Shown: one piece after another, positions 45,338 through 61,668 of the stretch
Layout of the letters: each line of letters starts with the position of its first letter
How positions within the stretch are numbered: position 1 is the first letter of the stretch
From: Paenarthrobacter sp. JL.01a
Lineage (GTDB): Bacteria > Actinomycetota > Actinomycetes > Actinomycetales > Micrococcaceae
DNA length: 64,000 bases
Direction: 5' to 3'
Assembly (NCBI RefSeq): GCF_025452095.1
Contig: NZ_CP104877.1
Coordinates: 1,426,001-1,490,000 of the forward strand
The notes under the pieces: model-generated
Database searches by the model: none
Seen by the model: the letters and a program-made list of their open reading frames with translations, nothing else
What the model was told of the DNA's origin: nothing
Position numbers and translations under genes: made by a program

Positions 45338-46526
45338 GGATCAGCAGTCCGGCGAGGACCTGGACCAGGAGTTCGACGCAGCACCCGAACCTTCGGACGC
45401 CGCAGCGGACACTCCAGAGGACGACGACGCCGAGCCGGGCCCCGTCCGGACGAGCGTGCCGACGGGTCCTCCGACTGGCGTGATGTCGGCGGAGCGGCTC
45501 GCCATCAAAGCCTTGGAATCGAAACTGCTGGGCGGCGAACGCAAGCTTCGGCGACGTGAGGTGGCTGCCGGCGCGGGCGTGTCCATCCTGTCCGCCCGCA
45601 AGGTGTGGCGGGCACTGGGTTTCCCGAACTTCAACGATGAGGACGTGGCGTTCACCGAACGCGACCAAGCAGCGCTGTCCCGCATCCTGGACCTGGTGCG
45701 GGCGGGTCTGCTGACCGAAGAAGCCGCCATCTCCGTGACCCGTTCCATTGGCCAGATGACGGACCGCATGGTGGTCTGGCAGATCGAGGCTCTGGTAGAA
45801 GACATGGTCTCTGAGCAGGGCATTCCGGACGCCGTGGCCCGCAAACAGTTGGTGGGCCGCTTGCCCTCCCTGGTGGATTCCCTCGAAGAGATCCTCGTCT
45901 ACTCCTACCGCAGACAGCTCAATGCCGGCATACAACGGTTGGCCGTGCGTGCCGAAGCAGGGCTCCAGGCCAGCGAAGAAGGCCGTGAGGGTGACGAGGA
46001 CGATTCTCCGTTGCCCTTGGCGCGCGCCGTCGGTTTTGCCGACCTCGTCTCGTACACCAGCCTTTCGCGGCGCATGAATGAAAAAACGCTGGCCCAGCTG
46101 GTGCAGCGCTTCGAGAACAAGTGTGCCGAAATCATCTCCGTTGGCGGTGGTCGATTGGTTAAGACCGTGGGCGATGAAGTGCTGTACATTGCCGAGACCC
46201 CGGCTGCCGGGGCCGAGATTTCCCTCGCATTGGCACAGGCCTTCACTGAAGACGAGATCCTGCCCCAGTGCCGCGTGTCCATGGTGTGGGGGCGCATCCT
46301 TTCGCGTCTTGGCGACATTTACGGACCCACGGTGAATCTGGCCGCCCGCCTCACAACGCTGGCCCAGCCGGGCACGGTCCTGGTCGATGCCATGACCGCT
46401 GCGGCCCTGGGGCAGGACGACCGTTTCGTGCTGGTGCCGCAGAAGTCGGAGAACGTGCGCGGCTTCGGCGAGATCCACCCGGTCATGCTGGCCCGGGGCC
46501 GGGGCAAGGGCCTGGTGCTGGACTAA
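45327..46526 (+). CDS. Class III adenylate cyclase with pH-sensor-type N-terminal domain
   Basis: A 399-residue soluble cyclase. After an acidic disordered start, residues about 55-195 resemble the regulatory domain of mycobacterial Rv1264 (RREVAAGAGVSILSARKVWRA, LGFPNFNDEDVAFTERDQAA), which inhibits or activates by pH. The catalytic domain has VGFADLVSYTSLS (metal Asp), GGGRLVKTVGDEVLYI (Lys for adenine, second metal Asp) and GDIYGPTVNLAARL (Asp, transition-state Asn and Arg). All class III residues for ATP use are present, so it should be active, probably as a homodimer. ATG at 45327 is preferred over an in-frame GTG 9 bases upstream. Overlaps the PH-domain gene. Confidence 0.92.
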   Translation: MSVEDQQSGEDLDQEFDAAPEPSDAAADTPEDDDAEPGPVRTSVPTGPPTGVMSAERLAIKALESKLLGGERKLRRREVAAGAGVSILSARKVWRALGFPNFNDEDVAFTERDQAALSRILDLVRAGLLTEEAAISVTRSIGQMTDRMVVWQIEALVEDMVSEQGIPDAVARKQLVGRLPSLVDSLEEILVYSYRRQLNAGIQRLAVRAEAGLQASEEGREGDEDDSPLPLARAVGFADLVSYTSLSRRMNEKTLAQLVQRFENKCAEIISVGGGRLVKTVGDEVLYIAETPAAGAEISLALAQAFTEDEILPQCRVSMVWGRILSRLGDIYGPTVNLAARLTTLAQPGTVLVDAMTAAALGQDDRFVLVPQKSENVRGFGEIHPVMLARGRGKGLVLD

Positions 46527-46596
46527 GGCCTACCCAACGCCCCGGAAAGCCCACCTCCCTTAGTGTTGCGCGCGTCCTGCTTCATGTTGCGCGGCC

Positions 46597-46627
46597 TTGG
46601 CTAATCGATGGATTAACCCGGTACTCT
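46597..46627 (+). promoter_or_regulatory. Promoter-like motif of giant surface gene 1
   Basis: TTGGCT (46597-46602) and TACTCT (46622-46627) are separated by 19 bp and followed by TAG. The same arrangement, with the same 19-bp spacing, lies upstream of the paralogue at 52926-52956, which supports a conserved promoter despite otherwise different sequence. Confidence 0.5.
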
Positions 46628-46683
46628 TAGCTTGTTTGTGTCGTGATGGCCGGAGTTCGGTGCTGGCTGCCTATTAGTGGGGA

Positions 46684-49600
46684 ATGTGGATGGCTCTGAC
46701 CGATGGGTCCGGGAATCGCCGTGTCAAGATTCGTCGGCGGAAGATCATCACGGCCACCGCTTTCACAGCCGCCGCCGCGGTCCTGGTGACCGGCGCGATC
46801 CTCTACCCAGGGTTTAAAACCACCGAAGTGGACCTCAATGACGGCGGCGTCTGGGTGGTCAGCAAGTCCAAGGGTGCGGCCGGCCGGCTCAACTATCCGT
46901 CCAAGTCCCTGGACGGCGCCGTTACCCCGGCGAGCAAGGACTTCGACATCCTGCAGCAGGCCAGCGACGTCTTCATCGACGATGCCGACGGCGCCACCAT
47001 TAACCCGGTCAGTGCAGCCAACATGCGCCTCGGGGGCGACCAAAAGCTTCCCGGATCGGCCGAGGTCAGCTTCGGCAACCGGGTTCTGGCAGTCACTGAC
47101 ACTTCCAAAGGCAAAGTCTGGGCACTCACGGCAGGATCAGTGGGCGGGTTCAGCGACGAATCCGAACCCGTACTGGAGCAGTCCACCGGCATCGTTTCGG
47201 TGGTTGGCGTGGACGACACCATCCACACCGTGGACCCCGAAACCGGGAGCCTGACGGACACCAAGGTCGATGCCAACGGCCAGTCCGTGGACTCGCAGGT
47301 CCGCAAGGATGACGCCCTGAAGGCATCCGGCGACCTGCAGCTGACGGCGGTGGGGGACAAAGCAGTGGTCCTCAACGAGGCCACGGGCAACATCGTCCTG
47401 CCCGGCGGAGCGAGCGTTCATCTGGACGATGCCCGGGACGCCAAGCTGCAGCAAAGTGGACCCGCTGCGGATTTCGTGGCAATTGCCACCACCAAGGCAC
47501 TCTTGCTCCAGCCCCTCGATGGAAGCACAGCCAAGACCATCTCCGCCGAGGGCCAAGGTGTTCCTGCCGCGCCTGTCCACTTGGGCAGTTGCACGTACGG
47601 GGCGTGGTCCGGGGCCAACAAGTACCTCCGCGAATGTACCAACCAGGCTGACAGCCGCCGCGCCGACGTGCCCAAGGCGAGTGCGTCGCCGTCGTACGTT
47701 TTCCGGGTCAACCGCGATCTCGTGGTCCTCAACGACGTCAACTCCGGCAACGTCTGGATGGTCAACCAGAACATGCAGCTGGTCAACAACTGGGACGACG
47801 TCATCCCGCCGGAGCAAACATCGGACGACGCCGACAAGGACTCCGCCGATGAAGTCCAGCAGACGGTCCTCCCGGACCGCAGCAAACCGAACACTCCGCC
47901 GGTCGCGAAACCGGACGCTTACGGCGTGCGCGCGGGCAAGACGACCCTCCTGCCCGTGTTGGACAACGACGCCGACTCCGACGGCGACGTCCTGACCGTT
48001 TCTGCCGACCAAGCCCTGAAGTCCGGGGCGCTGGCTCCCGTTTACGGCGGGACGGGCTTCCAGATCACTGTTCCTCCCGGTCAGTCCGGATCGGAATCGT
48101 TCAAGTACTCCGTAGATGACGGCCGCGGCGGTACTGCTTCGACGAACGTGGACCTCAGGATCGTTCCGCCGGGTGAAAATGCCGCTCCCCAACAAAAACC
48201 CAACAGGAACAACGCCCTGGTGGTGCAGACCGGCAAAATCGCCAACCAGTACATCCTCACTGACTGGATCGACCCCGACGGCGACGACCTCTTCGCCGTG
48301 GCAGCCAGCAGCAGCGATCCCGCGGACCAGGTCCGGATCCGGCCCGATGGACTGTTGACGTTCCAGGACTCCGGCGCGGGCCCCGGAAAGAAAACCATCT
48401 CCGTTACGGTCTCCGACGGCACGCTGAGCACCGAAGGACGGATCAGCGTCGATGTCCGGGCTCCGGGAGCCCTGCCGCCCATCGCCAACGCCGACCACGT
48501 GGTGGCGGTCGCCGGCCAGGACACGGTGATCGCTCCGCTGAAGAACGACTCCGACCCCCAGGGCGGCACCCTGCGTCTTGCCCAAGCACAGCCGGACGAG
48601 CAAGCTACGGCAGTGATCGGCCCGGACCAGCAGACGTTCACGTTCAACTCCACCAGCGTCGGCCCGCACTACGTGACCTACATGGTCACCAACGGTCCGG
48701 CGAGTGCCCAGCAGTTGGTGCGCGTCGACGTCGTGTCCGGCAGCAACGATGGCGCTCCTGTCGCGGTCCGGGACATAGCGCTTCTGCCCAGCGGTGGCAG
48801 CACAGTGGTGGACGTGCTGGGCAATGACTCCGACCCCGCCGGCGGCGTGCTGGTGGTCCAATCCGTGACGGCAGCCGACGGACTTCCTGTCTCGGTGGCG
48901 GTCCTTGACCACTCGGTCGTCAAGATCACCGACATCCATGCCACGGGCCAGCTGTCCTTGAAGTACACCATTTCCAATGGCAAGGCCTCGGCCACAGGTG
49001 ACATTTCCGTGCAAGTGGTCCCGGCCCCCAGCAAACTCCAGGCGCCGCAAGCCAAGCCCGACGAAGTGTCAGTGCGGGTGGGCGACGTGGTCACCATCCC
49101 CGTGCTGGCAAACGACTCCGATCCCAACGGTGGCGAACTGAAGCTCGATCCCGTCCTGGCCCAGCAGCCCGACGCCGCCGACGGAAGGATGTTCATCGCG
49201 GGCAACTACCTGCGCTTCATCGCGGGCGAGGTTCCCAAGACGGTGTATGCGATCTACAAGGTCAGCAACTCCTCGGGACAGACCGATTCGCAGCAGGTGA
49301 CCATCCGCATCCGCGCACGTGACGACGCCACCAACACCCGGCCCGAGCCTCGTAACCTGACGGCCCGGGTTGTGGCGGGCATGACCGTCAAGATCCCGGT
49401 TCCGTTGGATGGCATCGATGCCGACGGCGACTCCGTGCAGCTCATCGGCGTGGACAAGGCGCCGGCCATGGGCACTGCAGTGGTGCGGGACGGCTACATT
49501 GAGTTCACGGCCGGGGGAAAGTCTGCTGGAACGGATACCTTCAGCTACCGGGTCCGGGACCGCATTGGCGCCGAAAACACGGGAACCGTGATTGTGGGCA

Positions 49601-52600
49601 TCGCTCCGGCAGAGGCAAACAACCAAAAGCCGATCGCCGTCGACGACGCCGTCGATGTCCGGCCGGGCCGCCGCATCGCGGTGGACGCCTTGAAGAACGA
49701 CTCCGATCCGGACGGCGACCCCATCGCCCTGGTCAATTCCTTTGAAGCCAACCCCGGCCTGCAGGTCGAGGCTGCCTCCGGCAAGGTCCTGCTGACCGCA
49801 CCCGGTGCGGCCGGTGTCGAGAGCATCAGTTACCGGATCCAGGACGACAAGAAGGCCGAAGCCAGCGCCGTGGTCCGGGTTCAGACAAGCCCGACGGCGC
49901 CCCTCCACGTGCCGATTGCCGTGGACGACCACGTCACGCTGGCTGAGACGCTGGGCAAGACAGCTGTCGACGTTCCGGTCCTGAAGAACGACTCTGATCC
50001 CGACGGCGTGGCTGAAGACCTCACGATCACGTTGCCGGACGCGAACCCGAATGCACGCGTCGGTACCTCGGGCAACGTGGTGGTGACCCTCGGTCCGCAG
50101 GATCAGCTGATTCCGTACACCGTCACTGACATCGATGGTCAGTCCGCGACTGCGGTGATGTGGATTCCGGGCCAGGGCCTCCAATACCCGACTTTGGCCA
50201 AGACGGACCCGGTGGAGGTCATGTCCGGCAAGGACGTCACCTTGTCACTGCAGGAGTATGTCCGCGTCCGGGATGGCCGGCAGGCACGCATTACCGTGGC
50301 AGACAAGATCCGTGTGCAGGGTGGAGATCCCACCAACGTCATCGCCGGCGATGGAAACGCGTTGCGCTATGCTGCGCAAGCCGATTACGTCGGTCCTGGT
50401 TCCATCACCTTTGAGGTCACCGACGGTTCCGGTCCGGATGATTCCCAAGGGCTGAAATCCACGCTGACCATCATGACCAAGGTGATCCCGGACCCCAACG
50501 CCAACCACCCGCCCACCTTCAGTGGCGCTTCGGTAGAGGCACCCAAGGGGGAGACCACCGACGTTGAGTTGGCCAACTTGGCCAAGGACGTGGACGAGCG
50601 CGACCAAGGCAACCTCAAGTTTGACCTCGACGGGGAACAACCAACTGGTTTCCAGGCCAAAGTTGAAGGCTCCGTCCTCAAGATCAGCCCCGATCTTTCC
50701 CTCAATCCCGGTGCCGTGGGTACTTTCCCGCTCAAGGTCACCGACGGCCGTTCCGACGCCGTACGGGCAATCGTGACCGCCACCGTGGTCTCCTCCAACC
50801 GGCCGCGCCCGGTGGCGAACGACGACTCCGTGGACAAAGCCAACGCAGGCCGCCCGGAAACCGTCAATGTCCTCTCCAATGACTTCAACCCCTTCAACGA
50901 TGCGCCGTTGACCATCGAAAACGCTGCTGTGGAAACAGGATCTGCCGCCGGTCAGCCGACGGTCTCCGGTGACTCGATCACCGTCACCCCGGCCGACGGT
51001 TTCAAGGGTGTGATGGTGGTCCGCTACACCGTGCTGGATAAGACCAAGGACCCCTCAAGGCAGGCCACGGGCCGTGTCCGTATTACGGTGCGGGATAAGC
51101 CTGACGCTCCGTCGGCACCGGTTGCCACGGACGTACGGAGCCGGACCGCTGTGCTGAAGTGGACACCGCCGTCGGACAATGGCGCAGCCATCACCAAGTA
51201 CACGGTGAAAGCGGCAGGCTTCGAGCAGGTGTGCCCCACCACCACCTGCACCCTGTCCGGGTTGACCAACAACGTGAAATACGTGTTCACCGTGTTCGCC
51301 ACGAATGAGGTGGGCGATTCGCCGGCATCTGCGGCTTCCAACGAGATCAAGCCGGATGAGAAGCCGTCACCGCCCGATGCCCCCGCCGTCAAGGCGGGCG
51401 ATAAGAACATGGCCATCACCTGGACTCCTGCCAGGACGGAGGGGTCCCCGGTAAAGCACTACAACCTGGAAATCTCGCCGCCTCCTGCCAACGGCATTGC
51501 CGTGAAAAACGAGGTCACAGGCCTCAGCTACACCTGGCCCGGTCTCACCAACGGCGTGAAGTACAAGGTACGGGCCCAGGCAGTGAATGACCTCGGCCCC
51601 TCGGACTGGGGCATGTACTCCATTGAGGACAACCCTGCCGGCCTTCCCGGTGCCCCCGCTGCACCCACCACCGCCGTGGTGCAGTCCGTGGGGACCCAGA
51701 ACCAACTCCGTGCCGACTGGACCGAGCCGGACACCAACGGTGATCCGATCAAGGCGTACTACGTCACCATGAACGGCGGTAACGGAGTGCCCCAGACGCA
51801 GACGATCCCCGGCAACGTTCGCTCCGCAGTTTTCACCGCGCAGAATGACGAAAAAGGCTACACATTCACGGTGCAAGCGGAGAACAAAGCCGGAAAGGGC
51901 AGCGTCAGTGCACCCTCGGCGCCACGGCGTGCCACCGGCATGCTGGGCCAGGTTAACAACGTCTCAGCGACACCCGCCAATACCGGGGGAGCCGGTCGGG
52001 CTGTGACCATCAATTTCACAGCCCTTGACCAAACGCAGCGCAACGGATCCGCCCAAAGTGAAGTGAGCTACCGCTACGTCGCAAGTACCGGACAATCAGG
52101 TCCCATCAGCCCCGGGCAAACGGTCAGTGGCTTCACCAATGGGCAGGCCACCACTATCACTGTCAACGCTGTATCTACAGTGGCACCCAGTTCGAATCCC
52201 AGCGCCCCGGCTACCACCACACCGTACGGTTCCCCGGGTACGCCGTCGGCCTCCGGCGCCAACGGTGGCCAGAACCAGACCACCCTGACCTTGAACTGGT
52301 CCTCACCTTCCACGGCCGGCAACGACGTTGCCACCACGAAGATCAGGATCACGGGCGGCGGAACGGACACCGGCTGGATCAACGAATCGGCCTCCGGCAG
52401 CCGGGTGGTGAACACCGGCGGTTACAACCAGACACGCACCATTGAAGTCCAAACGTTCAACTCGGTGGGCCAGGGTGGGCCGGTTGCTTCTGCAAGTGCC
52501 CAAAGTGGACCGCAGAAGACGTCGTGGGACGCTACGCTTCCGGCCGGAAGTTTCCGTACCTGTACGGACACAGCGGCATCGGGACAGACGTCCTGGGACC

Positions 52601-52824
52601 CGAACACACCGGGCCACCGCTGTGACGGCGTGGTCTACGGTACTCCGTGGCAGTACGAGTCAAACGGTTCCTTCACGGTCAACTGCTACATCAACCGCAG
52701 TACCCCGTACCTGAACTACGCGGCCTGGTACCGCCTGACCAGTGGGCCGAACGCAGGCCGCTACATCGCGCAGGGCAACACCACCCTGGGCGATCCCGGA
52801 CCCCACCAGATTCCGCAATGCTGA
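46684..52824 (+). CDS. Giant surface protein 1: membrane anchor, cadherin-like repeats, FN3 repeats
   Basis: 2046 residues. A basic start (RRVKIRRRK) and one hydrophobic segment, about residues 21-44 ending ILYPGF, form an uncleaved anchor or signal. Residues about 50-400 are a beta-rich, propeller-like region (TTEVDLNDGGVWVVSKSKG onward). From about 420 to 1400 come repeats of about 95 residues, each with an N-D-x-D-x-D-G/P-type calcium-binding loop (NDADSDGD at 426, NDSDPQGG near 619, NDSDPAGG near 712, NDSDPNGG near 809, NDSDPDGD near 1004). About five fibronectin type III domains follow (1470-1940), then a short module with Cys residues and WYRLTSGPNAGRYIAQ. Head of a locus with a paralogue, MoxR, DUF58 and a transglutaminase-like protein. 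Probably an extracellular adhesin or scaffold; function not known. Confidence 0.88.
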   Translation: MWMALTDGSGNRRVKIRRRKIITATAFTAAAAVLVTGAILYPGFKTTEVDLNDGGVWVVSKSKGAAGRLNYPSKSLDGAVTPASKDFDILQQASDVFIDDADGATINPVSAANMRLGGDQKLPGSAEVSFGNRVLAVTDTSKGKVWALTAGSVGGFSDESEPVLEQSTGIVSVVGVDDTIHTVDPETGSLTDTKVDANGQSVDSQVRKDDALKASGDLQLTAVGDKAVVLNEATGNIVLPGGASVHLDDARDAKLQQSGPAADFVAIATTKALLLQPLDGSTAKTISAEGQGVPAAPVHLGSCTYGAWSGANKYLRECTNQADSRRADVPKASASPSYVFRVNRDLVVLNDVNSGNVWMVNQNMQLVNNWDDVIPPEQTSDDADKDSADEVQQTVLPDRSKPNTPPVAKPDAYGVRAGKTTLLPVLDNDADSDGDVLTVSADQALKSGALAPVYGGTGFQITVPPGQSGSESFKYSVDDGRGGTASTNVDLRIVPPGENAAPQQKPNRNNALVVQTGKIANQYILTDWIDPDGDDLFAVAASSSDPADQVRIRPDGLLTFQDSGAGPGKKTISVTVSDGTLSTEGRISVDVRAPGALPPIANADHVVAVAGQDTVIAPLKNDSDPQGGTLRLAQAQPDEQATAVIGPDQQTFTFNSTSVGPHYVTYMVTNGPASAQQLVRVDVVSGSNDGAPVAVRDIALLPSGGSTVVDVLGNDSDPAGGVLVVQSVTAADGLPVSVAVLDHSVVKITDIHATGQLSLKYTISNGKASATGDISVQVVPAPSKLQAPQAKPDEVSVRVGDVVTIPVLANDSDPNGGELKLDPVLAQQPDAADGRMFIAGNYLRFIAGEVPKTVYAIYKVSNSSGQTDSQQVTIRIRARDDATNTRPEPRNLTARVVAGMTVKIPVPLDGIDADGDSVQLIGVDKAPAMGTAVVRDGYIEFTAGGKSAGTDTFSYRVRDRIGAENTGTVIVGIAPAEANNQKPIAVDDAVDVRPGRRIAVDALKNDSDPDGDPIALVNSFEANPGLQVEAASGKVLLTAPGAAGVESISYRIQDDKKAEASAVVRVQTSPTAPLHVPIAVDDHVTLAETLGKTAVDVPVLKNDSDPDGVAEDLTITLPDANPNARVGTSGNVVVTLGPQDQLIPYTVTDIDGQSATAVMWIPGQGLQYPTLAKTDPVEVMSGKDVTLSLQEYVRVRDGRQARITVADKIRVQGGDPTNVIAGDGNALRYAAQADYVGPGSITFEVTDGSGPDDSQGLKSTLTIMTKVIPDPNANHPPTFSGASVEAPKGETTDVELANLAKDVDERDQGNLKFDLDGEQPTGFQAKVEGSVLKISPDLSLNPGAVGTFPLKVTDGRSDAVRAIVTATVVSSNRPRPVANDDSVDKANAGRPETVNVLSNDFNPFNDAPLTIENAAVETGSAAGQPTVSGDSITVTPADGFKGVMVVRYTVLDKTKDPSRQATGRVRITVRDKPDAPSAPVATDVRSRTAVLKWTPPSDNGAAITKYTVKAAGFEQVCPTTTCTLSGLTNNVKYVFTVFATNEVGDSPASAASNEIKPDEKPSPPDAPAVKAGDKNMAITWTPARTEGSPVKHYNLEISPPPANGIAVKNEVTGLSYTWPGLTNGVKYKVRAQAVNDLGPSDWGMYSIEDNPAGLPGAPAAPTTAVVQSVGTQNQLRADWTEPDTNGDPIKAYYVTMNGGNGVPQTQTIPGNVRSAVFTAQNDEKGYTFTVQAENKAGKGSVSAPSAPRRATGMLGQVNNVSATPANTGGAGRAVTINFTALDQTQRNGSAQSEVSYRYVASTGQSGPISPGQTVSGFTNGQATTITVNAVSTVAPSSNPSAPATTTPYGSPGTPSASGANGGQNQTTLTLNWSSPSTAGNDVATTKIRITGGGTDTGWINESASGSRVVNTGGYNQTRTIEVQTFNSVGQGGPVASASAQSGPQKTSWDATLPAGSFRTCTDTAASGQTSWDPNTPGHRCDGVVYGTPWQYESNGSFTVNCYINRSTPYLNYAAWYRLTSGPNAGRYIAQGNTTLGDPGPHQIPQC

Positions 52825-52925
52825 GGCCATCAGCTGCGCGGTGCGGGGAAGTTGTCCCCATCGCCTCCCACGGCGGCAGCACTGTAGGCTGCCATAGCCA
52901 ATGGAGAGCCCGCTCGCGGTTTTCC

Positions 52926-52956
52926 TTGGCTGGCCGTGGGGCGCGTGGGATAGTCT
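52926..52956 (+). promoter_or_regulatory. Promoter-like motif of giant surface gene 2
   Basis: TTGGCT (52926-52931) and TAGTCT (52951-52956) are separated by 19 bp and followed by TAG, mirroring the motif upstream of the first giant gene. It lies about 120 bases before the GTG of gene 2, so the second paralogue probably has its own promoter. Confidence 0.5.
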
Positions 52957-53074
52957 TAGGGACTGAAAATTCCGCCGCCGTTCGGGGGTACTGCGGATTG
53001 TACGGCCGCCGGCACATGCCGGTCGGCTTGGAAGCCACGTGGGGGCGGCTTAAAACAAAGGGAATTCTGGGGCT

Positions 53075-56000
53075 GTGACAACTTTCTTCGGCAAGCTGGG
53101 GCTGAAAAAGCGTCAAAACAAGAGAATCATCACGGGCACCGCTGCGACTGCGGCTGGCGCTGTGCTGATCGCGGGGGCTGTGTTGTACCCGGGTTTCAAG
53201 ACCACGGAGGTGGACTTGAACGACGGCGGTGTGTGGGTTGTGAGCAAAACCAAGAACGCCGTCGGTCGGTTGAACTATCCCTCCCGTGTCCTTGATGGCG
53301 CGGTGACGCCTGCCACCACCACGTTCGATGTCCTGCAGCACGAGGGCAACGTCTTCGTCGATGACGAGTCCGGCTCGACCATCAACCAGGTCTCTGCGGC
53401 GAACCTGAAGCTCGGTGGCGACAAGCAGCTCCCGTCGTCGTCACAAGTGAGCTACGGTTCCACCGTCCTCTCCGTGACGGACCCCGCCCGGGGAAAGGTG
53501 TGGGCGCTTTCTCCCTCGACTGTCAACGGCTTTGATGAGGAGGGAACTGAACCCGTTTTGACCGGGGACCAGGGATTGGTCTCAGCGGTCGGCACGGACA
53601 ACCGCATCTACACGGCAGACCCCGGCAAGGGCGAAATCTCGGTCATCACCGTTGACGCTGATGGCCAGCGCACCAATTACGAGGTCACCAAGGTTGACGA
53701 GCTCAAGGGCGCGGGTGATCTCCAGCTTTCCGTGGTGGGGGACAAGCCTGTGGTCCTGGACGCGGCCTCCGGCAACCTGTTCCTTCCTGGTGGCCGCAGG
53801 CTGCAGCTGCAGGATGCCCGCGAAGCAAAACTCCAGCAGACCAGCGAGGACAGCAGCTACGTGGCCATCGCCACCCGCAAAGCACTGCTGAAGCAGCCGT
53901 TGGACGGTTCCACTGCCGCAACGGTCAACACTGACGGTGAGGGCGTCCCCGCGGCCCCCGTCCAGGTCAGCAAGTGCGTCCACGCCGCTTGGGCCGGCGC
54001 CAACAAATACCTCCGCGACTGCGACAACGACGCCGACGACAAGAAGAATGACGTCCCCAAAGCCAGTGCGTCTCCGAGCTATGTCTTCCGCGTCAACCGT
54101 GACCTCGTGGTGCTCAACGATGTGAACTCGGGCAGCGTCTGGTTGGTCAACCAGAACATGCAGCTGGTCAACAACTGGGACGATGTTGTCCCGCCCAAGA
54201 ACCAGTCCGATGACCAGGACCAGGAGTCCGCGGACAACAACACCATCAACGTCCTGCCGGACCGCACCAAGCCAAACCGTCCACCGGAAACCAAGCCGGA
54301 CGAATTCGGTGTCCGCCCGGGCCGCACCTCCATTTTGAGCGTCTTGGACAATGACTCGGACCCCGACGGCGATGTCCTCACCGCGTCCGTGGGAGCCAAC
54401 GGCCCCAAACTGGGCACCCTGGAAAACATTTACGGCGGCTCCGCCTTCCAGATCAAGGTGCCCGCCGATGCCAAACCGGGAACGGAAGTCTTCGACTACA
54501 ACGCCGCGGACGGACGCAGCCTGTCCGCCGGCGGGAAGGTCACCCTCCACGTGGTGGCCCCCGAAGAGAACAAGCCTCCGTTCTTCAAACGCGGCGAGCC
54601 CACCACCATGGTGGTGGAACAGGGAAAGTCGGTCAGCCAGAACATCCTGACCGACTGGATGGACCCCGATGGCGACGATCTGGTCCTGCTGGACGCCAAG
54701 ACCGACAACGACCAGGACCAGGTGAAGGTGCGCCGCGATGGCCTGCTGACGTACCAGGATTCCGGGGCCGCGCCGGGCAAGAAGAACGTCACCATCACCG
54801 TGTGGGACGGCCGCGCCACCACGACCGGACGCATCGTGGTCAATGTGCAGCCCCCGGGCGCCCTGGCGCCGGTGGTGAACGCCGACCACGTGACAGCCGT
54901 GGTGGGCCAGGACCTGGTCATCGCACCGTTGAAGAACGACGTCGACCCCAACGGCGGCGCACTGCGCGTGGCCCACGTCGAGGCGGCCGGACCGGCCGAA
55001 CTCGGTCCTGTGACCGACGGTGGTACCTTCACCTTCAGGAGCACCACACCCGGGCCGATCTACTTGACGTACATCGCCAGCAACGGCCCGCAAAGCAGCC
55101 AGGGACTCATCCGGGTGGATGTGGAATCCGGCAAGGATGCAGGGGCGCCCGTTGCCGTCCATGACGTAGCGCTGCTGCCCGTGGGCGGAAGCGTCCTGGT
55201 GGATCCGCTGGCCAATGACTCCGATCCCTCCGGCGGCGTGCTGGTACTGCAATCGGTCACTGTTCCGGATGGTTCGTCCGCTTCCGTCAGCGTGATCGAC
55301 CACAGCGTCCTTCGGGTCACGGACGTGCTCGGTTCCAAGGATCCTTTCGTCTTCAGCTACACCATGTCCAATGGCCGCGCCTCAGCCACCGGAACGGTCG
55401 GCGTCGTCCCGGTGCCGGCCCCCGCCGTCGTGGAAGCTCCGCAACCGAAACCGGACGAAGTGAACGTGCGTGTCAACGACGTCGTCACCATTCCGGTCCT
55501 GGACAACGACACGCATCCACAGGGTGAAGAGTTGTCCGTGGACCCTGTCCTGGCGCAGAACATCGCCGCGGAAGACGGAAAGGCGTTCATCTCGGAAAAG
55601 ACCCTGCGCTTCATCGCAGGTCCCACGCCCAAGACCGTGCGTGCCATCTACAACGCCGTTGATCCGCAGGGCCAGAAGAGCGCGGCCGCGGTGACCATCC
55701 ACATCCTTCCGCTCGAAGGCACCCAGAACTCGCGGCCCCAACCGAAGAACCTGACCGCACGTGTCGTGGCCGGGGGCAGCGTCCGGATTCCGGTTCCGCT
55801 GGACGGCATCGATCCCGACGGCGATTCCGTCCAGCTCACCGGCATCGACAGCACCCCCACCATGGGAACGGCGACGGCGGGGAGCAGCTTCATCGACTTC
55901 GTCGCCGCTGGTGACGGCGCGGGTACGGATACGTTCCGCTACAAGGTGATTGACCGCCAGGGCGCGGTCAATACCGGAACTGTGACTGTCGGCGTCGCTC

Positions 56001-59000
56001 CCCGCGGGGAGAACAACCAGAAACCGGCTCCCGTGGATGACGAAGTGAAGGTTCGGCCCGGCCGGCAGATCGCCGTCGATGCCATCGCCAACGATTCCGA
56101 CCCCGACGGCGACATTATCCGTATCCTCTCGGACAGCCTCGAAGCCGATGCCGGCCTGGACGCCCACGTCAGCAAGACCAGCGGACGCGTGCTGGTGAGG
56201 GCGCCGGCAGCAGAAGGCACCGTGAACGTCCGCTACTCCGTGGCCGATGACCGTGACGCGGTGGGACAGGCCAGCATCCGCGTGGTGGTCAAGAACGACA
56301 TCCCGCTCCAGGCGCCGATTGCCCGTGACGACCGGGTGACATCGGCCCAGACGCTCGGGAAAACCGCCGTGGACGTTCCCGTGCTCAAGAACGATGAAGA
56401 CCCCGACGGCGTGGGGGAGAACCTCAAGGTCAGCACGGAGGTGACCACTGCACGTCCCGGGCCTGAGGGCAACGTGATCGTCGAGCTCACTGAACAGCCG
56501 CAGCTGGTTCCCTACACCGTAGAAGACGTGGATGGCCAGAAGTCCACGGCCATCATCTGGGTTCCGGGCATCGGCCAGCAGGTTCCCACCCTTGCCAAGG
56601 ACGAGGTCATTGAGCTGGTTTCGGGCCAGTCGGTAACGGTCGACCTCGCCGAATGGGTGAAGGTCCGCGACGGCCGTTCACCCCGGCTTACTCAGACCGA
56701 CCGGATCAAGCTCATTGGCGCCGACGGAGCAGATCCTGTAGCCAACGGTGGTACCGGTCTGAAGTACACTGCCGGAGCCGAGTACGTCGGTCCTGGCTCG
56801 ATCAGTTTCGAAGTCACTGACGGAACCGGTCCGGACGATCCCAACGGATTGAAGTCCACCTTGAGCATCCGGACCAAGGTTTTGCCCGATCCCAACAAGA
56901 ACAACCCACCTGTCCTGCTCGGCAGCGACGTGGACGTGCCAAAGGGTGATTCCGCGAGCCTGGATCTCGAAAAACTGACCTCGGATCCAGACTCGGACGA
57001 TGTCCAGAACATGAACTACGAGCTGACAGGTGGAGCCACCGGAGGCTTCAAAGTCTCCATTGAAGGGAAGACGCTCAAAGCCTCCGCGGACGATTCCGTC
57101 CAGATCGGACAGTCGGGCACGGTGCAGGTGAAGGCCAAGGATCGCCGCGGGCTTGAAGCCGTGGCCACCTACAAGCTCTCACTCTCGGCGTCGAACCGAC
57201 CCAAGCCGGTGGCAAACGACGACGCCGAGCCGGACGCGCAGTCCGGCAAGCCCGTCACGGTCAACGTCCTGGCCAATGACTCGAACCCGTTCCCGGACAC
57301 GCCGTTGAAGATCGTTTCGGCCGTCACGGAGACCGGCCAGGGCACGGCCGAGCCGGGTGGTGACAGCGTTACTGTCACTCCTGCTGGTGGTTTCACCGGC
57401 ACCATGGTTGTCGCGTACACAGTGCAGGACAAGACGGGCGAGCTCTCCCGCTATGCCACGGCCCGCATCCGTTTGACCGTCAAGGACAAGCCAGCGGCGC
57501 CCAGTACACCCTTGGCCCAGAGCGTGGGCGACCAAACGGCATTGCTCACGTGGAACGCCCCGGCTGACCGTGGTTCGCCCATCACCAAATACACGGTGTA
57601 CGGCGAGAACGGCTTCAAACAGGATTGCCCCGCCAACACCTGTACGCTGACTGGCCTTACCAACAACGTGAAGTACCACTTCGCCGTCACGGCAACGAAC
57701 GCCATCAACGAATCCGAGCGTTCCCCGGTCTCGGCCGAGGTCCGTCCCGACGTCAAGCCCGACACCCCCGTGGCTCCCACGTTGAAGTTCGGCGACAAGC
57801 AGCTCTCGGTCGCCTGGGTTCCCCCGGCGAGCAAGGGTTCTCCCATCAAGTCCTATGACCTAGAGATTTCGCCTGCCCCGGCAGGTCAAAATCCCCAAAT
57901 CCAGAACCTGACGGGTAACAGTCACGTGTGGACCGGCCTGACCAATGGTGTGGCCTACAAGGTCCGGGTCCTGGCCCGCAACGACGCCAAGGAACCGTCG
58001 GAGTGGAGTACCTACTCGGCCGCGGAGACTCCTGCCGGAGTTCCGGCGACACCGGCTGCCCCGTCCGTCGCGGGCGCCGGGTCCGTGGGCAATCAGAGCC
58101 AGTTGCAGGTCAGCTGGACCGCACCAAACAACAATGGCGACGCCGTGTCCAGCTACACGCTCACCACGTACCGTGGTGGCGCGGTGGTTGGTTCCCAGGC
58201 AGTGGCAGCTACCTCCCAGAACGTGACAGTGGACAACTCGGAAGCGGACTACTCATTCACGGTCTCGGCCACCAATAAGGCCGGCGTCAGTGGCGTGAGC
58301 CAGCAGTCCAACGCCATTCGTGCCGCCGGCAAGCCTGGAATGGTGGGTGCACCCTCGGCAGCACTGGTGGAGACCAACGCCGACGGCGGCAAGATCCGTG
58401 TCGCGTTCAACCCGCTCTCCGCGGCGGAACGCAACGGTGCCAACGCCAACGAGATCAGCTACCGCTACGCCCTGACCTCCGGCTCGGGCACCGGTGCGAT
58501 CCCCGCCGGTGGCGGAGTTGTGGCAGCCCCCAACGGCGCCGACACAGCCGTGGTCGTGTGGGCCATTTCCTCCCGGAACCCCACGCCCGGTGACCGCAGC
58601 CCGGCGTCGAATACCGTGAATCCCTACGGCCTTGCCTACGCTCCGACCGTTACCGGCAGCAAGAGCAGCGGCGTGGGGGACAAGACGGTGTCCTGGACCT
58701 GGAACGCTCCCAACGGCAACGGCCGTCCGGTTACCGGCTACCAGTACAGCCTCGACGGCGGGGCGTGGCAGAACACCGACCAGCGGAGTTTCTCCAAGAC
58801 TGTCGGCTTCAGCGAAACGCACACCCTGCAGGTTCGCGCCGTCAGCGGGGGACAGGCAGGACGTGTGGGCAGCGACACCTCGCGCAGCGGTGCCGAGCCG
58901 CCACCGCCGCAGCCTCCGGCAGGCGAGGTCAGGGCCCACAACAACACGTGCCCCGGCCAGCCTGGAAGACCGGACACTTACAACCCGAGCGGCCCGAGCT

Positions 59001-59170
59001 GCGGCGTTGGCTGGGTCTCCAACTCCGAAGGGTGGTTGAACGTCAACTGCACCAAGGACATCTACAACAACGGCACGCCCTGGTACCGCGTCACCCAGGG
59101 CAGCCACCCCGGCTGGTTCGTAAAGTCCACCACCGTGGATCTGCGCGGAACCAAGCCCGGCGGGTGCTAG
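53075..59170 (+). CDS. Giant surface protein 2: paralogue of protein 1
   Basis: 2031 residues, colinear with the preceding protein over the full length. After KKRQNKRIITGTAATAAG and a hydrophobic segment ending AVLYPGF comes the shared TTEVDLNDGGVWVVSKTKN. Calcium-loop repeats fall at nearly the same positions (DNDSDPDGD near 425, NDVDPNGG near 620, NDSDPSGG near 713, NDTHPQGE near 809, NDSDPDGD near 1005). Fibronectin type III domains run from about 1470, and the C-terminus has CPGQPGRPDTYNPSGPSCG plus PWYRVTQGSHPGWFVKS, a degenerate SH3-like module. GTG start. The MoxR gene follows 66 bp downstream. An ancient tandem duplication, not a recent one, since third-codon positions differ widely. 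Confidence 0.88.
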   Translation: MTTFFGKLGLKKRQNKRIITGTAATAAGAVLIAGAVLYPGFKTTEVDLNDGGVWVVSKTKNAVGRLNYPSRVLDGAVTPATTTFDVLQHEGNVFVDDESGSTINQVSAANLKLGGDKQLPSSSQVSYGSTVLSVTDPARGKVWALSPSTVNGFDEEGTEPVLTGDQGLVSAVGTDNRIYTADPGKGEISVITVDADGQRTNYEVTKVDELKGAGDLQLSVVGDKPVVLDAASGNLFLPGGRRLQLQDAREAKLQQTSEDSSYVAIATRKALLKQPLDGSTAATVNTDGEGVPAAPVQVSKCVHAAWAGANKYLRDCDNDADDKKNDVPKASASPSYVFRVNRDLVVLNDVNSGSVWLVNQNMQLVNNWDDVVPPKNQSDDQDQESADNNTINVLPDRTKPNRPPETKPDEFGVRPGRTSILSVLDNDSDPDGDVLTASVGANGPKLGTLENIYGGSAFQIKVPADAKPGTEVFDYNAADGRSLSAGGKVTLHVVAPEENKPPFFKRGEPTTMVVEQGKSVSQNILTDWMDPDGDDLVLLDAKTDNDQDQVKVRRDGLLTYQDSGAAPGKKNVTITVWDGRATTTGRIVVNVQPPGALAPVVNADHVTAVVGQDLVIAPLKNDVDPNGGALRVAHVEAAGPAELGPVTDGGTFTFRSTTPGPIYLTYIASNGPQSSQGLIRVDVESGKDAGAPVAVHDVALLPVGGSVLVDPLANDSDPSGGVLVLQSVTVPDGSSASVSVIDHSVLRVTDVLGSKDPFVFSYTMSNGRASATGTVGVVPVPAPAVVEAPQPKPDEVNVRVNDVVTIPVLDNDTHPQGEELSVDPVLAQNIAAEDGKAFISEKTLRFIAGPTPKTVRAIYNAVDPQGQKSAAAVTIHILPLEGTQNSRPQPKNLTARVVAGGSVRIPVPLDGIDPDGDSVQLTGIDSTPTMGTATAGSSFIDFVAAGDGAGTDTFRYKVIDRQGAVNTGTVTVGVAPRGENNQKPAPVDDEVKVRPGRQIAVDAIANDSDPDGDIIRILSDSLEADAGLDAHVSKTSGRVLVRAPAAEGTVNVRYSVADDRDAVGQASIRVVVKNDIPLQAPIARDDRVTSAQTLGKTAVDVPVLKNDEDPDGVGENLKVSTEVTTARPGPEGNVIVELTEQPQLVPYTVEDVDGQKSTAIIWVPGIGQQVPTLAKDEVIELVSGQSVTVDLAEWVKVRDGRSPRLTQTDRIKLIGADGADPVANGGTGLKYTAGAEYVGPGSISFEVTDGTGPDDPNGLKSTLSIRTKVLPDPNKNNPPVLLGSDVDVPKGDSASLDLEKLTSDPDSDDVQNMNYELTGGATGGFKVSIEGKTLKASADDSVQIGQSGTVQVKAKDRRGLEAVATYKLSLSASNRPKPVANDDAEPDAQSGKPVTVNVLANDSNPFPDTPLKIVSAVTETGQGTAEPGGDSVTVTPAGGFTGTMVVAYTVQDKTGELSRYATARIRLTVKDKPAAPSTPLAQSVGDQTALLTWNAPADRGSPITKYTVYGENGFKQDCPANTCTLTGLTNNVKYHFAVTATNAINESERSPVSAEVRPDVKPDTPVAPTLKFGDKQLSVAWVPPASKGSPIKSYDLEISPAPAGQNPQIQNLTGNSHVWTGLTNGVAYKVRVLARNDAKEPSEWSTYSAAETPAGVPATPAAPSVAGAGSVGNQSQLQVSWTAPNNNGDAVSSYTLTTYRGGAVVGSQAVAATSQNVTVDNSEADYSFTVSATNKAGVSGVSQQSNAIRAAGKPGMVGAPSAALVETNADGGKIRVAFNPLSAAERNGANANEISYRYALTSGSGTGAIPAGGGVVAAPNGADTAVVVWAISSRNPTPGDRSPASNTVNPYGLAYAPTVTGSKSSGVGDKTVSWTWNAPNGNGRPVTGYQYSLDGGAWQNTDQRSFSKTVGFSETHTLQVRAVSGGQAGRVGSDTSRSGAEPPPPQPPAGEVRAHNNTCPGQPGRPDTYNPSGPSCGVGWVSNSEGWLNVNCTKDIYNNGTPWYRVTQGSHPGWFVKSTTVDLRGTKPGGC

Positions 59171-59236: not shown

Positions 59237-60208
59237 ATGACCATGACAAGCGAGCAGGCCGCGTGGTTTGCAGAAACGTTCGAGAAGCTCGTTGCCAACG
59301 TGGGCCAGGCCGTCCTGGGCAAGGAACACGTCATCCGGCTGACCTTCACCGCGATGCTGGCCGAGGGCCACGTCCTCTTCGAGGACGCACCGGGCACGGG
59401 TAAGACCTCGCTGGCCCGGGCGTTGGCCGCCACGGTCCAGGGATCGCACAACCGCATCCAGTTCACCCCCGACCTCCTGCCCTCCGATGTCACCGGTGTG
59501 ACCATCTACGACCAGAAGACGCAGAAGTTCGAATTCCACAAGGGCCCGGTCTTCAGCAACATCGTCCTGGCCGATGAAATCAACCGAGCCTCGCCGAAGA
59601 CCCAGTCCGCCCTGCTCGAGGTCATGGAAGAGTCCCGCGTCACCGTCGACGGAACCACCTACGAGGCCGGCCGTCCGTTCATGGTGCTGGCGACGCAGAA
59701 CCCGATCGAGCAAGCCGGTACCTACCGTCTTCCCGAAGCCCAGCTTGACCGTTTCCTGATCAAGACCTCCATCGGCTACCCGGACCACGCTTCCACCGTG
59801 CGGCTGCTGGGCGGCTCCAACCTGAAGGACCGCTCGAAGGACCTGGCAGCCCTGATCACCACCCAGGCCGTGGCCGACATGGCGGACCTTGCGGCGACAA
59901 CCCACGTGGACACCGCGGTGCTCGAGTACATTTCGCGCCTGTGTGAGGAAACCCGCAACGCTTCCGAAACCCGGCTCGGTGTTTCCGTGCGTGGTGCCCT
60001 GGCCATGGTCCGTGCCGCCAAGGTGTGGGCAGCCGGACAGGGCCGGAACTTCGTGCTGCCGGACGACGTCAAGGAACTTGCACCCGTGGTGTGGACCCAC
60101 CGTCTGGTCATGGATCCTGAGGCTGAATTCTCGGGCGCGACGCCTGAGGTCGTGCTCGCGCGGGTCCTCTCCGAGGTCGCTGCCCCGCAGCAACGCGCCA
60201 CGGCTTAA
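59237..60208 (+). CDS. moxR: MoxR-family AAA+ ATPase
   Basis: A 323-residue MoxR chaperone-like ATPase. Walker A is EDAPGTGKTSLARAL, Walker B is IVLADEINRASPKTQSALLE, and sensor 1 lies in VLATQNPIEQAGTYRLPEAQLDRF (two adjoining parts). The C-terminal lid domain includes GVSVRGALAMVRAAKVWA. MoxR proteins work with DUF58 and von Willebrand-type partners in protein maturation or complex assembly. AGGAACAGGA lies upstream of the ATG. Its neighbours (DUF58 and transglutaminase-fold genes downstream, giant surface proteins upstream) suggest it remodels or activates that surface system. Confidence 0.93.
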   Translation: MTMTSEQAAWFAETFEKLVANVGQAVLGKEHVIRLTFTAMLAEGHVLFEDAPGTGKTSLARALAATVQGSHNRIQFTPDLLPSDVTGVTIYDQKTQKFEFHKGPVFSNIVLADEINRASPKTQSALLEVMEESRVTVDGTTYEAGRPFMVLATQNPIEQAGTYRLPEAQLDRFLIKTSIGYPDHASTVRLLGGSNLKDRSKDLAALITTQAVADMADLAATTHVDTAVLEYISRLCEETRNASETRLGVSVRGALAMVRAAKVWAAGQGRNFVLPDDVKELAPVVWTHRLVMDPEAEFSGATPEVVLARVLSEVAAPQQRATA

Positions 60209-60264: not shown

Positions 60265-61668
60265 ATGTCCTCCAGCAAACCCCTGAGCCGGGCTGCTGAT
60301 TCGCTTAAGCGCGCCACGTCAGCGCTTGGCGGTGCCCTGCGCGCCGCGCGTGGTTCCGGCAACGACGCGGGCAAACGCCCGGGCAGCCCGAAAAAGCCCG
60401 CTAACACCAGGAAACTGCACCCCGCGGCCGTATGGGCCGAGGCCGCCGGAGCAGCAGGGGAGATCCTTTCCCCGGCGTGGGAGAAATTCCGTTCCCTTTG
60501 GCTGCGCTACGCGTGGCCAATCCTCTCCGTCGTCAGTCTGCTCGGCTGGGTGGTGCTGGCGGCGTCGATCGGGCTCTGGTGGGCCGGGCAGGCATGGGGC
60601 TGGCAGGAAGCCAAGTCAGCGGCTTTGGTGGCATTCCTGCTCTTCCTGCTGGCCATCGGCTTTATTGTGGGCCGCTCGGCGTATTGCGTGGTGCTGGACC
60701 TGGCCCGTACCCGTGTGGCGGTGGGCGATGACGCCGTGGGAAGCATCGCGGTCTCCAACGTCTCGGCACGCCCGTTGCTGCCTGCAGCGCTGGAGTTGCC
60801 TGTGGGTGCCAACGCCGCCGTGTTCCACCTGCCCCGCATGAAGCCCGCACAGGTGCATGAGGACCTGTTCACCATCCCGACGGCCCGCCGTGCCGTCATC
60901 GTCGTCGGACCCGTGCGCTCGGTGCGCGCCGACCCGCTCCACCTGCTGCGCCGGCGCGTGCTCTGGACCGAACCCGTGGACCTGTTCGTGCACCCGCGGA
61001 CCGTGGCCCTCGGCGGTTCAGCGGCCGGCTTCATCCGCGACCTTGAGGGCATGCCCACCACTGAACTTTCCAGTGCCGACGTTTCGTTCCACGCGCTTCG
61101 TGACTATGTGCCCGGCGATGACCGTAGGCACATCCACTGGAAGACCACGGCCCGTACCAATAAACTCATGGTCCGCCAGTTCGAGGAAACGCGCCGCGCC
61201 CACCTGGCTATTGCCCTGTCCATCAACACCGATGAGTACGATTCCGAAGCGGAATTCGAAATGGCCATCTCGGTGGCCGGGTCCATTGGCCGCCAGGCGA
61301 TCAGCGAACAACGCGACCTCGATGTCCTGACCCAAAAAGGTCCCCTCCGCTGCGAAACCGGCCGTAACCTGCTGGACGACATGACACGGATCATCGGCGC
61401 ACCCTTGCGCAAGACCGCCGTCGACCTCGCCCGGACCTTGTCCGATACCGTCCCGAATGCCTCCGTGGTGTTCTTCGTGGTGGGCAGCCACGTCACCGCT
61501 ACGCAACTGCGTTCGGCCGCGGCCTCGGTCCCGCCCGGAGTCCGCAGCCTGGCCGTCCGCGTCCAACCCGGCGCCGCGCCGTCGAGGGCCAATATCGCGG
61601 ACCTGACCGTCCTCACCGTTGGCGACCTCGACGATCTCGCCATCGTTCTTCGAAAGGCGGCAGCATGA
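60265..61668 (+). CDS. DUF58 family membrane protein
   Basis: 467 residues. A basic N-terminal extension, two membrane helices (WPILSVVSLLGWVVLAASIG; AALVAFLLFLLAIGFIVGRS), then a beta-rich domain and the DUF58 core with the signature VSFHALRDYVPGDDRRHIHW, KTTARTNKLMVRQFEETRR, and a vWA-like fold behind it. Standard partner of MoxR. Its stop overlaps the start of the transglutaminase-like gene (ATGA). Confidence 0.92.
   Translation: MSSSKPLSRAADSLKRATSALGGALRAARGSGNDAGKRPGSPKKPANTRKLHPAAVWAEAAGAAGEILSPAWEKFRSLWLRYAWPILSVVSLLGWVVLAASIGLWWAGQAWGWQEAKSAALVAFLLFLLAIGFIVGRSAYCVVLDLARTRVAVGDDAVGSIAVSNVSARPLLPAALELPVGANAAVFHLPRMKPAQVHEDLFTIPTARRAVIVVGPVRSVRADPLHLLRRRVLWTEPVDLFVHPRTVALGGSAAGFIRDLEGMPTTELSSADVSFHALRDYVPGDDRRHIHWKTTARTNKLMVRQFEETRRAHLAIALSINTDEYDSEAEFEMAISVAGSIGRQAISEQRDLDVLTQKGPLRCETGRNLLDDMTRIIGAPLRKTAVDLARTLSDTVPNASVVFFVVGSHVTATQLRSAAASVPPGVRSLAVRVQPGAAPSRANIADLTVLTVGDLDDLAIVLRKAAA

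Follow-up and report, generated by a model that had tools for sequence, protein, structure and literature searches.

Two genes for giant proteins of one design lie side by side in the 64,000-nt stretch of DNA analysed here (the window), and the locus raises the question of which of their parts stay alike, which change, and how. The first-pass annotation described genes A and B as head-to-tail giant paralogues, and indeed both frames are intact, in tandem and on the + strand (Table 1); they are the sole two matches in the 4.40-Mb genome (E <= 0.001). Both follow one domain plan, in which a tail and one transmembrane (TM) helix lead into a predicted beta-propeller; roughly ten Ig/cadherin-like repeats come next, then FN3 domains and finally a four-Cys tip. 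Pfam places 10 Big_9 stretches in A and 11 in B, with three fn3 stretches in each (290.5 bits for Big_9 and 109.1 for fn3 in A, 246.4 and 99.3 in B, all above the cut-offs). Judging from the N-terminal hydrophobic helix and the K/R-rich tail (seven K/R against one D/E in the first 22 residues of A), both would be membrane-anchored, outward-facing proteins.

Table 1. Features of the A/B locus, in positions of the window.
Feature	Positions	Strand	Basis or remark
Promoter-like TTGGCT-N19-TACTCT upstream of A	46597-46627	+	exact match
Gene A, giant protein of Ig and FN3 domains, single N-terminal TM helix	46684-52824	+	ATG start, 2046 aa, intact
A, K/R-rich tail and single hydrophobic TM helix, ~residues 1-43	46684-46812	+	sequence; topology inferred
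A, predicted beta-propeller, ~residues 42-377	46807-47814	+	structure matches; block converted in relatives, not here
A, stalk, Big_9/cadherin-like repeats, ~residues 403-1470	47890-51093	+	Pfam
A, FN3 and FN3-like domains, ~residues 1474-1950	51103-52533	+	Pfam; middle portion inferred
A, C-terminal four-Cys tip (Cys 1960, 1980, 2001, 2046)	52534-52824	+	sequence
Promoter-like TTGGCT-N19-TAGTCT upstream of B	52926-52956	+	exact match
Gene B, giant paralogue of A	53075-59170	+	GTG start, 2031 aa, intact
B, predicted beta-propeller, ~residues 39-374	53189-54196	+	homology to A
B, stalk, Big_9/cadherin-like repeats	54275-57490	+	Pfam
B, FN3 and FN3-like domains	57497-58921	+	Pfam; later portion inferred
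B, C-terminal four-Cys tip (Cys 1959, 1976, 1992, 2031)	58922-59170	+	sequence
MoxR AAA+ ATPase (AAA_3)	59237-60208	+	Pfam; adjoins giant in relatives
DUF58 protein	60265-61668	+	Pfam
TgpA-type transglutaminase	61665-64000	+	runs beyond window end

Comparison of A with B gave 53% identity across nearly the full length. For colinear blocks of ~95 aa, identity ranges over 36-65% with a mean of 0.53; for non-colinear ones it averages 0.28 and is 0.39 at most. Identity is thus higher at matched than at unmatched repeats, which was the check set beforehand, and chance is rejected as the source of the spacing of the putative calcium loops. Each protein contains seven acidic D-x-D loops, five of which fall, as had been claimed for the loop repeats, at nearly equal residue numbers (427/425, 530/530, 910/911, 1005/1006 and 1102/1106 in A/B); those at 99 and 381 of A and at 315 and 1304 of B have no partner. 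The N-terminal 398 aa, described earlier as well over half identical, reach 64%. Identity is also low at residues 1301-1400 (0.42); beyond roughly residue 1700 it declines gradually and reaches 0.23-0.29 in the final ~250 aa, which makes the tips, as proposed, the most divergent part of the pair. The four Cys of each tip are similarly spaced in A and B.

We then compared 45 A/B pairs from the GTDB genus that holds Arthrobacter, Paenarthrobacter and Pseudarthrobacter, a non-random set drawn from the best matches listed and the least fragmented assemblies. Tract and fourfold-site analyses covered 41 pairs (G014, G024, G071 and G136, whose A lacks the YPGF anchor, were left out), nearest-neighbour analysis 39 (both copies at least 1900 aa long, anchor within the first 200 residues). 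In 28 of the 41 pairs, one block of at least 600 nt is 90-100% identical between A and B. This block, about 1 kb, comprises the TM helix and the propeller; the stalks of the same pairs have only 62-67% A/B identity in DNA. At fourfold-degenerate sites, identity is 0.77-1.00 in the block (at least 0.95 in 19 of the 28) and 0.42-0.61 in the stalk. For the propeller, the paralogue from the same genome is the reciprocal nearest neighbour in 26/39 pairs, for the stalk in 0/39, and the propeller tree requires 29 changes of A/B label. The right edge of the block lies at residue 374-378 in 27 of the 28 pairs, a position that in part simply marks where sequence similarity stops: unconverted pairs also retain a short conserved stretch, which ends at 371-377. 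These comparisons confirm, on sequence grounds, that in 28 of the 41 pairs open to analysis the TM-propeller block has been homogenised within genomes by apparent gene conversion; as these pairs are related, the figure is not a count of events. G040 was scored as unconverted, its B frame having no start; the short comparable part of its block is 0.99 alike. Outside the genus, 20 tandem loci include only one clear case of conversion and one partial case.

If the genes duplicated long ago, the tips then diverged and purifying selection by itself preserved the likeness of the shared parts, no gene conversion would be needed. This view fits the window's own pair, in which the propeller has 66% nucleotide identity and a fourfold-site identity (0.38) not above that of the stalk (0.44), and it agrees with the many invariant residues of the propeller. 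Selection at the protein level, however, cannot give such different synonymous identities to block and stalk of the same genes, nor can it put the own paralogue ahead of orthologues in two thirds of the pairs. We consider it unlikely as a general account: the comparisons refute it for the 28 converted pairs, and it stands for the Paenarthrobacter clade. Conversion was found neither in the window's own pair nor in the rest of its clade, nor in G005 and G112. The propellers of the Paenarthrobacter lineage, now only ~66% alike in DNA, have probably diverged too far to recombine. Comparing lineages that show conversion with those that do not provides a natural test of which part must stay interchangeable.

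Could the near-identity have arisen during assembly, a collapsed repeat causing the same N-terminus to be written twice or one copy to be dropped? Ten drafts have A on a lone contig of 5.3-5.8 kb whose start lies within the block or at its end, the break falling at A residue ~263-372, and G014 looks falsely single-copy on its main contig, its A body lying on a separate one. Such breaks, however, themselves require near-identical repeats, and 20 of the 28 converted pairs come from assemblies of at most four contigs. Moreover, collapse would tend to produce exact copies, whereas the blocks are 95-99.9% identical in 22 pairs, lower in four and exact in two. We therefore regard an artefact as very improbable, and short-read drafts of the A/B locus as prone to break at the repeat.

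For the stalk, nearest neighbours always pair A with A and B with B (78 of 78). In the stalk tree (23 rows), A and B form two clades with SH-aLRT 100 each, and the whole-protein tree (44 rows) agrees with this split. The old duplication proposed in the first-pass annotation is thereby upheld, and the stalk is inherited vertically. The accompanying idea that the stalk is kept constant has to be given up: A and B stalks, each tracking its own lineage, have drifted to ~55% identity, and the part kept alike is the N-terminal TM-propeller block, in the converted pairs and not in this lineage. Another source of likeness would be recent re-duplication, A or B being lost and made again from the other copy several times. 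Copies in other genera, G348 (100%) and G179 (76-94%), are indeed alike over all 650 codons compared. Within this genus, however, the stalks are old and only the block is young; the stalk trees refute re-duplication here, and as an explanation it is scarcely credible.

Single-copy genomes also bear on exchange between A and B. In G003, G007, G009 and G108, an A-type 5' end stands on a B-type body and no A-type stalk was found, an arrangement such as A-B recombination between the repeats would leave. G002, G042, G101 and G155 were rejected as fusions: they are A-type only against G013_A, one of two failed controls in the 5'-end typing, whose own 5' end is B-like. G014, with its A body on another contig, was not counted. 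None of the 28 genomes that have a single propeller match has an A-type stalk, so A, at least, is dispensable; 31 of 150 genomes of the genus have no match to the A propeller.

At the C-terminus, tip type changes about 9 times in A and about 14 times in B on the stalk trees, as counted on FastTree trees without control for tree error. The A tips form six clusters, one being the frameshifted G156_A, and G014_A and G024_A are fragments. G011_B and G017_B, for instance, have stalks 89% alike in DNA and are 43-62% alike over the last ~300 codons. Eleven tip comparisons were chosen by hand; a sharp break ~300 codons from the end was seen in four, all of them B and two sharing G011_B. In G008_A/G023_A, G053_A/G129_A, G004_B/G056_B and G016_A/G056_A, identity falls mainly in the last ~100-200 codons, G073_B/G138_B drops to 68% only, and G123_A/G148_A and G147_A/G112_A are without such a break. 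This indicates that the C-terminal ~100-300 residues have been replaced by different versions, repeatedly, in A and in B. Tip specialisation as one event after duplication, as first proposed, does not agree with tips that keep changing type inside A and inside B.

Structure prediction places matches to solved propellers across residues ~42-377 of the N-terminal model, nearly the same stretch as the converted block. One of many is 7ax2 (Z 18.6, rmsd 3.7, 287 residues aligned, model residues 44-370). Mean pLDDT is 61.8, with poor values ahead of residue 120 and beyond 329, and residues 42-377 are thus predicted, with moderate model confidence, to fold as a beta-propeller. In the C-terminal model, Foldseek and VIA-align matches fall on the FN3 part (residues 1-91); the four-Cys tip occupies residues 94-192, and none of the Pfam and NCBIfam matches extends over it.

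Beyond the MoxR, DUF58 and TgpA genes (Table 1) follow RDD, PP2C, a 618-aa protein that matches no Pfam family, and a Ser/Thr kinase. Directly upstream of the giants lies a gene with an adenylate/guanylate cyclase domain. The A propeller was matched in 6 of 14 genomes from other families, and at all six loci the giant is followed by MoxR and DUF58 (by TgpA in five); a kinase precedes the giant only in some of these families. Members of the genus devoid of the giant have only distant DUF58 homologues (23-36%; 8/8 examined). In the Bifidobacterium PFNA cluster, the order is pkb2-fn3-aaa-atp-duf58-tgm-prpC-hyp-fha, and cluster and FN3 protein are called unique to bifidobacteria in the text available to us (PMC8430577). 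Compared with that text, our locus likewise has a large FN3 protein with a TM domain directly 5' of MoxR, DUF58 and transglutaminase, with kinase and phosphatase genes near; in contrast, the giant is duplicated and Big_9 repeats make up most of it. Because the kinase lies downstream and the cyclase-domain gene takes the place directly upstream, we call the locus PFNA-like, not PFNA proper. As far as gene order goes, giant-MoxR-DUF58 occurs here and at loci of six other families, one possibly bifidobacterial, which brings the order of a supposedly bifidobacteria-only cluster to Arthrobacter relatives.

We think it quite likely that these PFNA-like tandem giants are mosaics of a converted TM-propeller, a vertically inherited stalk and replaced tips. 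A tandem duplication would have made A and B before divergence set in among the A/B-bearing genus members sampled. The TM helix and propeller would have been copied repeatedly from one gene to the other by gene conversion between direct repeats of ~1 kb, ~6.3 kb apart, the Ig/cadherin stalk would have been passed on vertically, and the C-terminal segment would have been swapped for other versions, presumably by recombination with other strains. Three opposite evolutionary regimes would then act within a single pair of genes, and in bacteria of the soil instead of pathogens, their anchor-side edge coinciding with a domain border.

One anchor design thus probably carries changing tips, on proteins that are probably exposed at the bacterial surface. 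The propeller may be the shared contact with the envelope machinery encoded next door, and the tips may bind different targets. A more speculative extension, which we put forward tentatively, is that of one plug with many probes: selection would hold the propellers identical for docking to a single MoxR-DUF58-TgpA-kinase machine, tips would be cassettes exchanged between strains, recombination would both standardise the plug and diversify the probe, and the machine would report or act on tip contacts. Phage-targeted surfaces are often the fastest-varying. It is possible, though less than probable, that the pair is mainly structural, as an envelope scaffold or S-layer-like fibre, with tip variation driven by phage or other pressure instead of different ligands. 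The first Foldseek row for the N-terminal model is 1l0q, an archaeal surface-layer propeller/PKD protein (E 1.4e-9, TM-score 0.38-0.46), in keeping with such a role; the dispensability of A speaks against it.

LigA and LigB of Leptospira are the closest precedent in the texts available to us. These surface proteins have Ig-like domains, their genes are tandem on some chromosomes, and the near-identity of their N-terminal parts is ascribed to gene conversion aided by the tandem arrangement (PMC7821625). Tandem Ig-like genes with near-identical N-terminal and divergent C-terminal parts are thus common to both systems. However, what the Lig genes have in common is Big_2 domains together with the DNA before them (identity from -266 to +1890), whereas the A/B block consists of TM helix and predicted beta-propeller, with 5' tail and promoter normally outside; A/B tips also switch type between strains, and phylum and gene neighbourhood differ. 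In Haemophilus influenzae HMW1/HMW2, gene conversion is said to exchange binding domains between loci (PMC8262952). HMW1 and HMW2 are likewise giant adhesins and paralogues, and their binding domains are diverse, but their loci are unlinked and have their own translocator, and the reported swap affects the binding domains, whereas in A/B the anchor side is homogenised. In the open-licence PMC literature, we found nothing on Arthrobacter with fibronectin type III and gene conversion or with MoxR and DUF58, and among the papers listed none naming the A/B locus.

Finally, the two genes had been credited with the same promoter motif. It is present before A and B here and, in its exact form, absent elsewhere in the window; with up to two mismatches, three window matches compare with a chance expectation of 2.7. 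In relatives, a relaxed version (TTGGC[ACGT], spacer 17-21, TA[CG]TCT) was detected in 3/42 upstream regions of A and 5/58 of B, which leaves a genus-wide shared promoter site unsupported. It stands at both genes only in G000, G008 and G053, meaning that just two close relatives have retained it in A as well as B, and the claim thus holds for this locus and its closest relatives only. A structured RNA leader before B was also rejected (no Rfam match in 46400-53300; fold z-score -0.66). The -10-like TAGTCT alone is conserved 5' of B within the window's own clade.

Genes A and B are 53% identical and have no other matches in the 4.40-Mb genome. Both proteins begin with a K/R-rich tail and a single hydrophobic helix, next to which a beta-propeller is predicted (A residues about 42-377 in the structure model). 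Ten to eleven Big_9 and three fn3 stretches (Pfam) follow, then more FN3-like domains and a four-Cys tip. The nearest named relative found was Paenarthrobacter nicotinovorans SSBW5 (99%). The cyclase-domain gene directly 5' of A occupies the same position in almost every cluster locus fetched from the genus.

Coordinates and order of the features at the giant-gene locus
Feature	Position	Description
Window	G000:C1:1426001-1490000	4.40-Mb genome, single contig
Upstream of A	45318-46526	class III adenylate/guanylate cyclase domain, 38.6 bits vs cut-off 21.9
Gene A	46684-52824	intact, tandem with B
Gene B	53075-59170	intact, tandem with A
Downstream of B		MoxR, DUF58, TgpA, RDD, PP2C, 618-aa protein (no Pfam match), Ser/Thr kinase, in that order

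Every part of the pair described in the first-pass annotation is present in the sequence. The matched plan is borne out by identities of 0.53 for colinear and 0.28 for non-colinear A/B blocks, and five of the seven acidic loops per protein have a partner at the equivalent place. The N-terminal region is indeed over half identical (64% across 398 residues) and the C-terminal modules differ strongly (0.23-0.29 in the last ~250 residues). Along the pair, identity is 0.54-0.72 over residues 1-400 and 0.42-0.66 over residues 401-1700. The described pair is thus real, but its evolutionary reading as a constant stalk with a changed tip has to be corrected to a three-part mosaic. The shared promoter motif (TTGGCT-N19-TA(C/G)TCT) has two exact matches here, but among relatives, scored with a looser form, both genes carry it in G008 and G053 only. 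The stretch 3' of the B promoter (about 52948-53000) is strongly conserved in the window's own clade; it has no Rfam match and its folding is not unusual.

The A propeller was matched in 119 of 150 sampled genomes of the same GTDB genus, and in every case where a single fetched stretch contained both copies and was shown with its neighbours, the order was A, B, MoxR. A stalk tree with 23 rows separates A from B, each clade with an SH-aLRT of 100; a third paralogue, present in G002, G013 and G020, belongs to neither. The pair of Arthrobacter cryoconiti (L132) makes up its own clade and therefore represents either a separate duplication or ancient homogenisation. Of 741 genome pairs, 675 show greater similarity between their B stalks than between their A stalks. 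In each of the 28 genomes where the propeller was matched only once, there is one long stalk match at the B-type level (55-59% to the A stalk), and the search gave no A-type stalk. Apparently, then, A has been lost repeatedly and B is the retained copy. A distant third giant paralogue lies elsewhere in some genomes (L037, L047, L055; propeller 47-49% to A), in L055 alongside DUF58, TgpA and kinase homologues.

Comparison of A with B inside each genome points to gene conversion: 28 of 41 pairs share a single block, no shorter than 600 nt and with a median near 1.05 kb, that is 90-100% identical. These pairs do not equal 28 events, since the strains are related. Stalk DNA of these converted pairs is 62-67% alike. 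At fourfold-degenerate sites, identity is 0.77-1.00 in the block (at least 0.95 in 19 of 28) and 0.42-0.61 in the stalk. The block, the N-terminal TM-propeller stretch, starts at residue 0-41 and ends at 374-378 in 27 of 28 pairs, although this right edge is partly the end of similarity, because unconverted pairs have a conserved patch ending at 371-377. Tails 5' of the block are less similar, mostly 40-80% where alignable. For the propeller, the own paralogue is the reciprocal nearest neighbour in 26 of 39 pairs; for the stalk, the nearest neighbour is of the same type in all 78 cases. Of the 13 uncounted pairs, ten belong to the window's clade; the others are G005, G112 and G040, the last with a B frame of insufficient length for judging conversion.

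Named genomes, some of whose records are the same genomes as in the counts just given, yielded 36 loci with both copies readable. Propellers are at least 93% alike in 16 and 88-89% in 2 more; the 15 loci closest to that of the window (L066-L080, from Paenarthrobacter and allied strains) reach 65-69%. The lineage to which the window belongs thus forms the exception, its anchor not being homogenised. In ten named drafts (L106, L122-L128, L130, L131), A occupies a lone 5.3-5.8-kb contig. These contigs begin at A residue about 263-372, within the block or at its end, an expected effect of near-identical repeats, and they indicate that single-copy calls from drafts are possible assembly collapses.

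Sorting of 5' ends into A and B types, correct for 78 of 80 controls, identified three drafts (G003, G007, G009) and one two-contig assembly (G108) in which a B-type body carries an A-type 5' end; an A-type stalk was searched for in all four and none was found. Such fusions would be the expected remnant of recombination between the two propeller repeats. The protein tree pairs G003 with G009 (1.0) and places G007 next to the two without support, so a single event may account for all three. Most other single-copy genomes examined have kept a B-type 5' end, so A was lost there by a different route.

Clustering of the last 115 residues, done separately for A and B, gave 6 types from 46 A tips, one of these types being a frameshifted gene, and 5 types from 72 B tips. 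With FastTree stalk trees taken as given, type changed 9 times in A (minimum 5) and 14 times in B (minimum 4). G011_B and G017_B, two B copies with stalk DNA 89% alike, are 43-62% alike over the last ~300 codons, and the same break is seen in G021_B/G078_B and G090_B/G023_B. Tip change in A covers a shorter stretch than in B. Structure searches with the C-terminal tip model gave matches on its FN3 half only.

The N-terminal helix would anchor A and B, with the propeller close to the membrane and the tip at the outer end. The A propeller was matched in 6 of 14 other-family genomes; in all six loci the giant is followed by MoxR and DUF58, with TgpA in five. Eight of eight giant-less genus members tested contain only distant DUF58 homologues (23-36%), as against 74-92% for DUF58 beside A/B giants of the same genus. 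Giant and close DUF58 thus occur or are missing as a set, suggesting a functional partnership. The shared contact would most naturally be made by the propeller, whose sequence is held alike by conversion; the tip is a candidate for contact with the outside.

Among the sources consulted, the nearest published case is LigA/LigB of Leptospira: these Ig-domain surface proteins are encoded in tandem on certain chromosomes, and their almost identical N-terminal part is attributed to gene conversion (PMC7821625). Domain exchange by gene conversion is also stated for HMW adhesins (PMC8262952). The gene cluster resembles the bifidobacterial PFNA cluster, which a review terms unique to bifidobacteria (PMC8430577). 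The position of the kinase differs between the two, and the comparison covered gene content and order, so we use the label "PFNA-like". A search of open-licence PMC literature found no paper on this locus in Arthrobacter.

Twenty tandem loci were taken from the family's other genera. The same block pattern is clear in G232 and partial in G186. Two loci are alike over all 650 codons compared (G348, 100%; G179, 76-94%), three over the first 50 codons only (G251, G208, G181; 87-92%), and 13 are unconverted. For G348 (L187), whose giants are identical over the compared codons, either the duplication is very recent or the copies have been homogenised along their whole length. In L193, L205 and L206, from two other genera, giants form triple tandem arrays.
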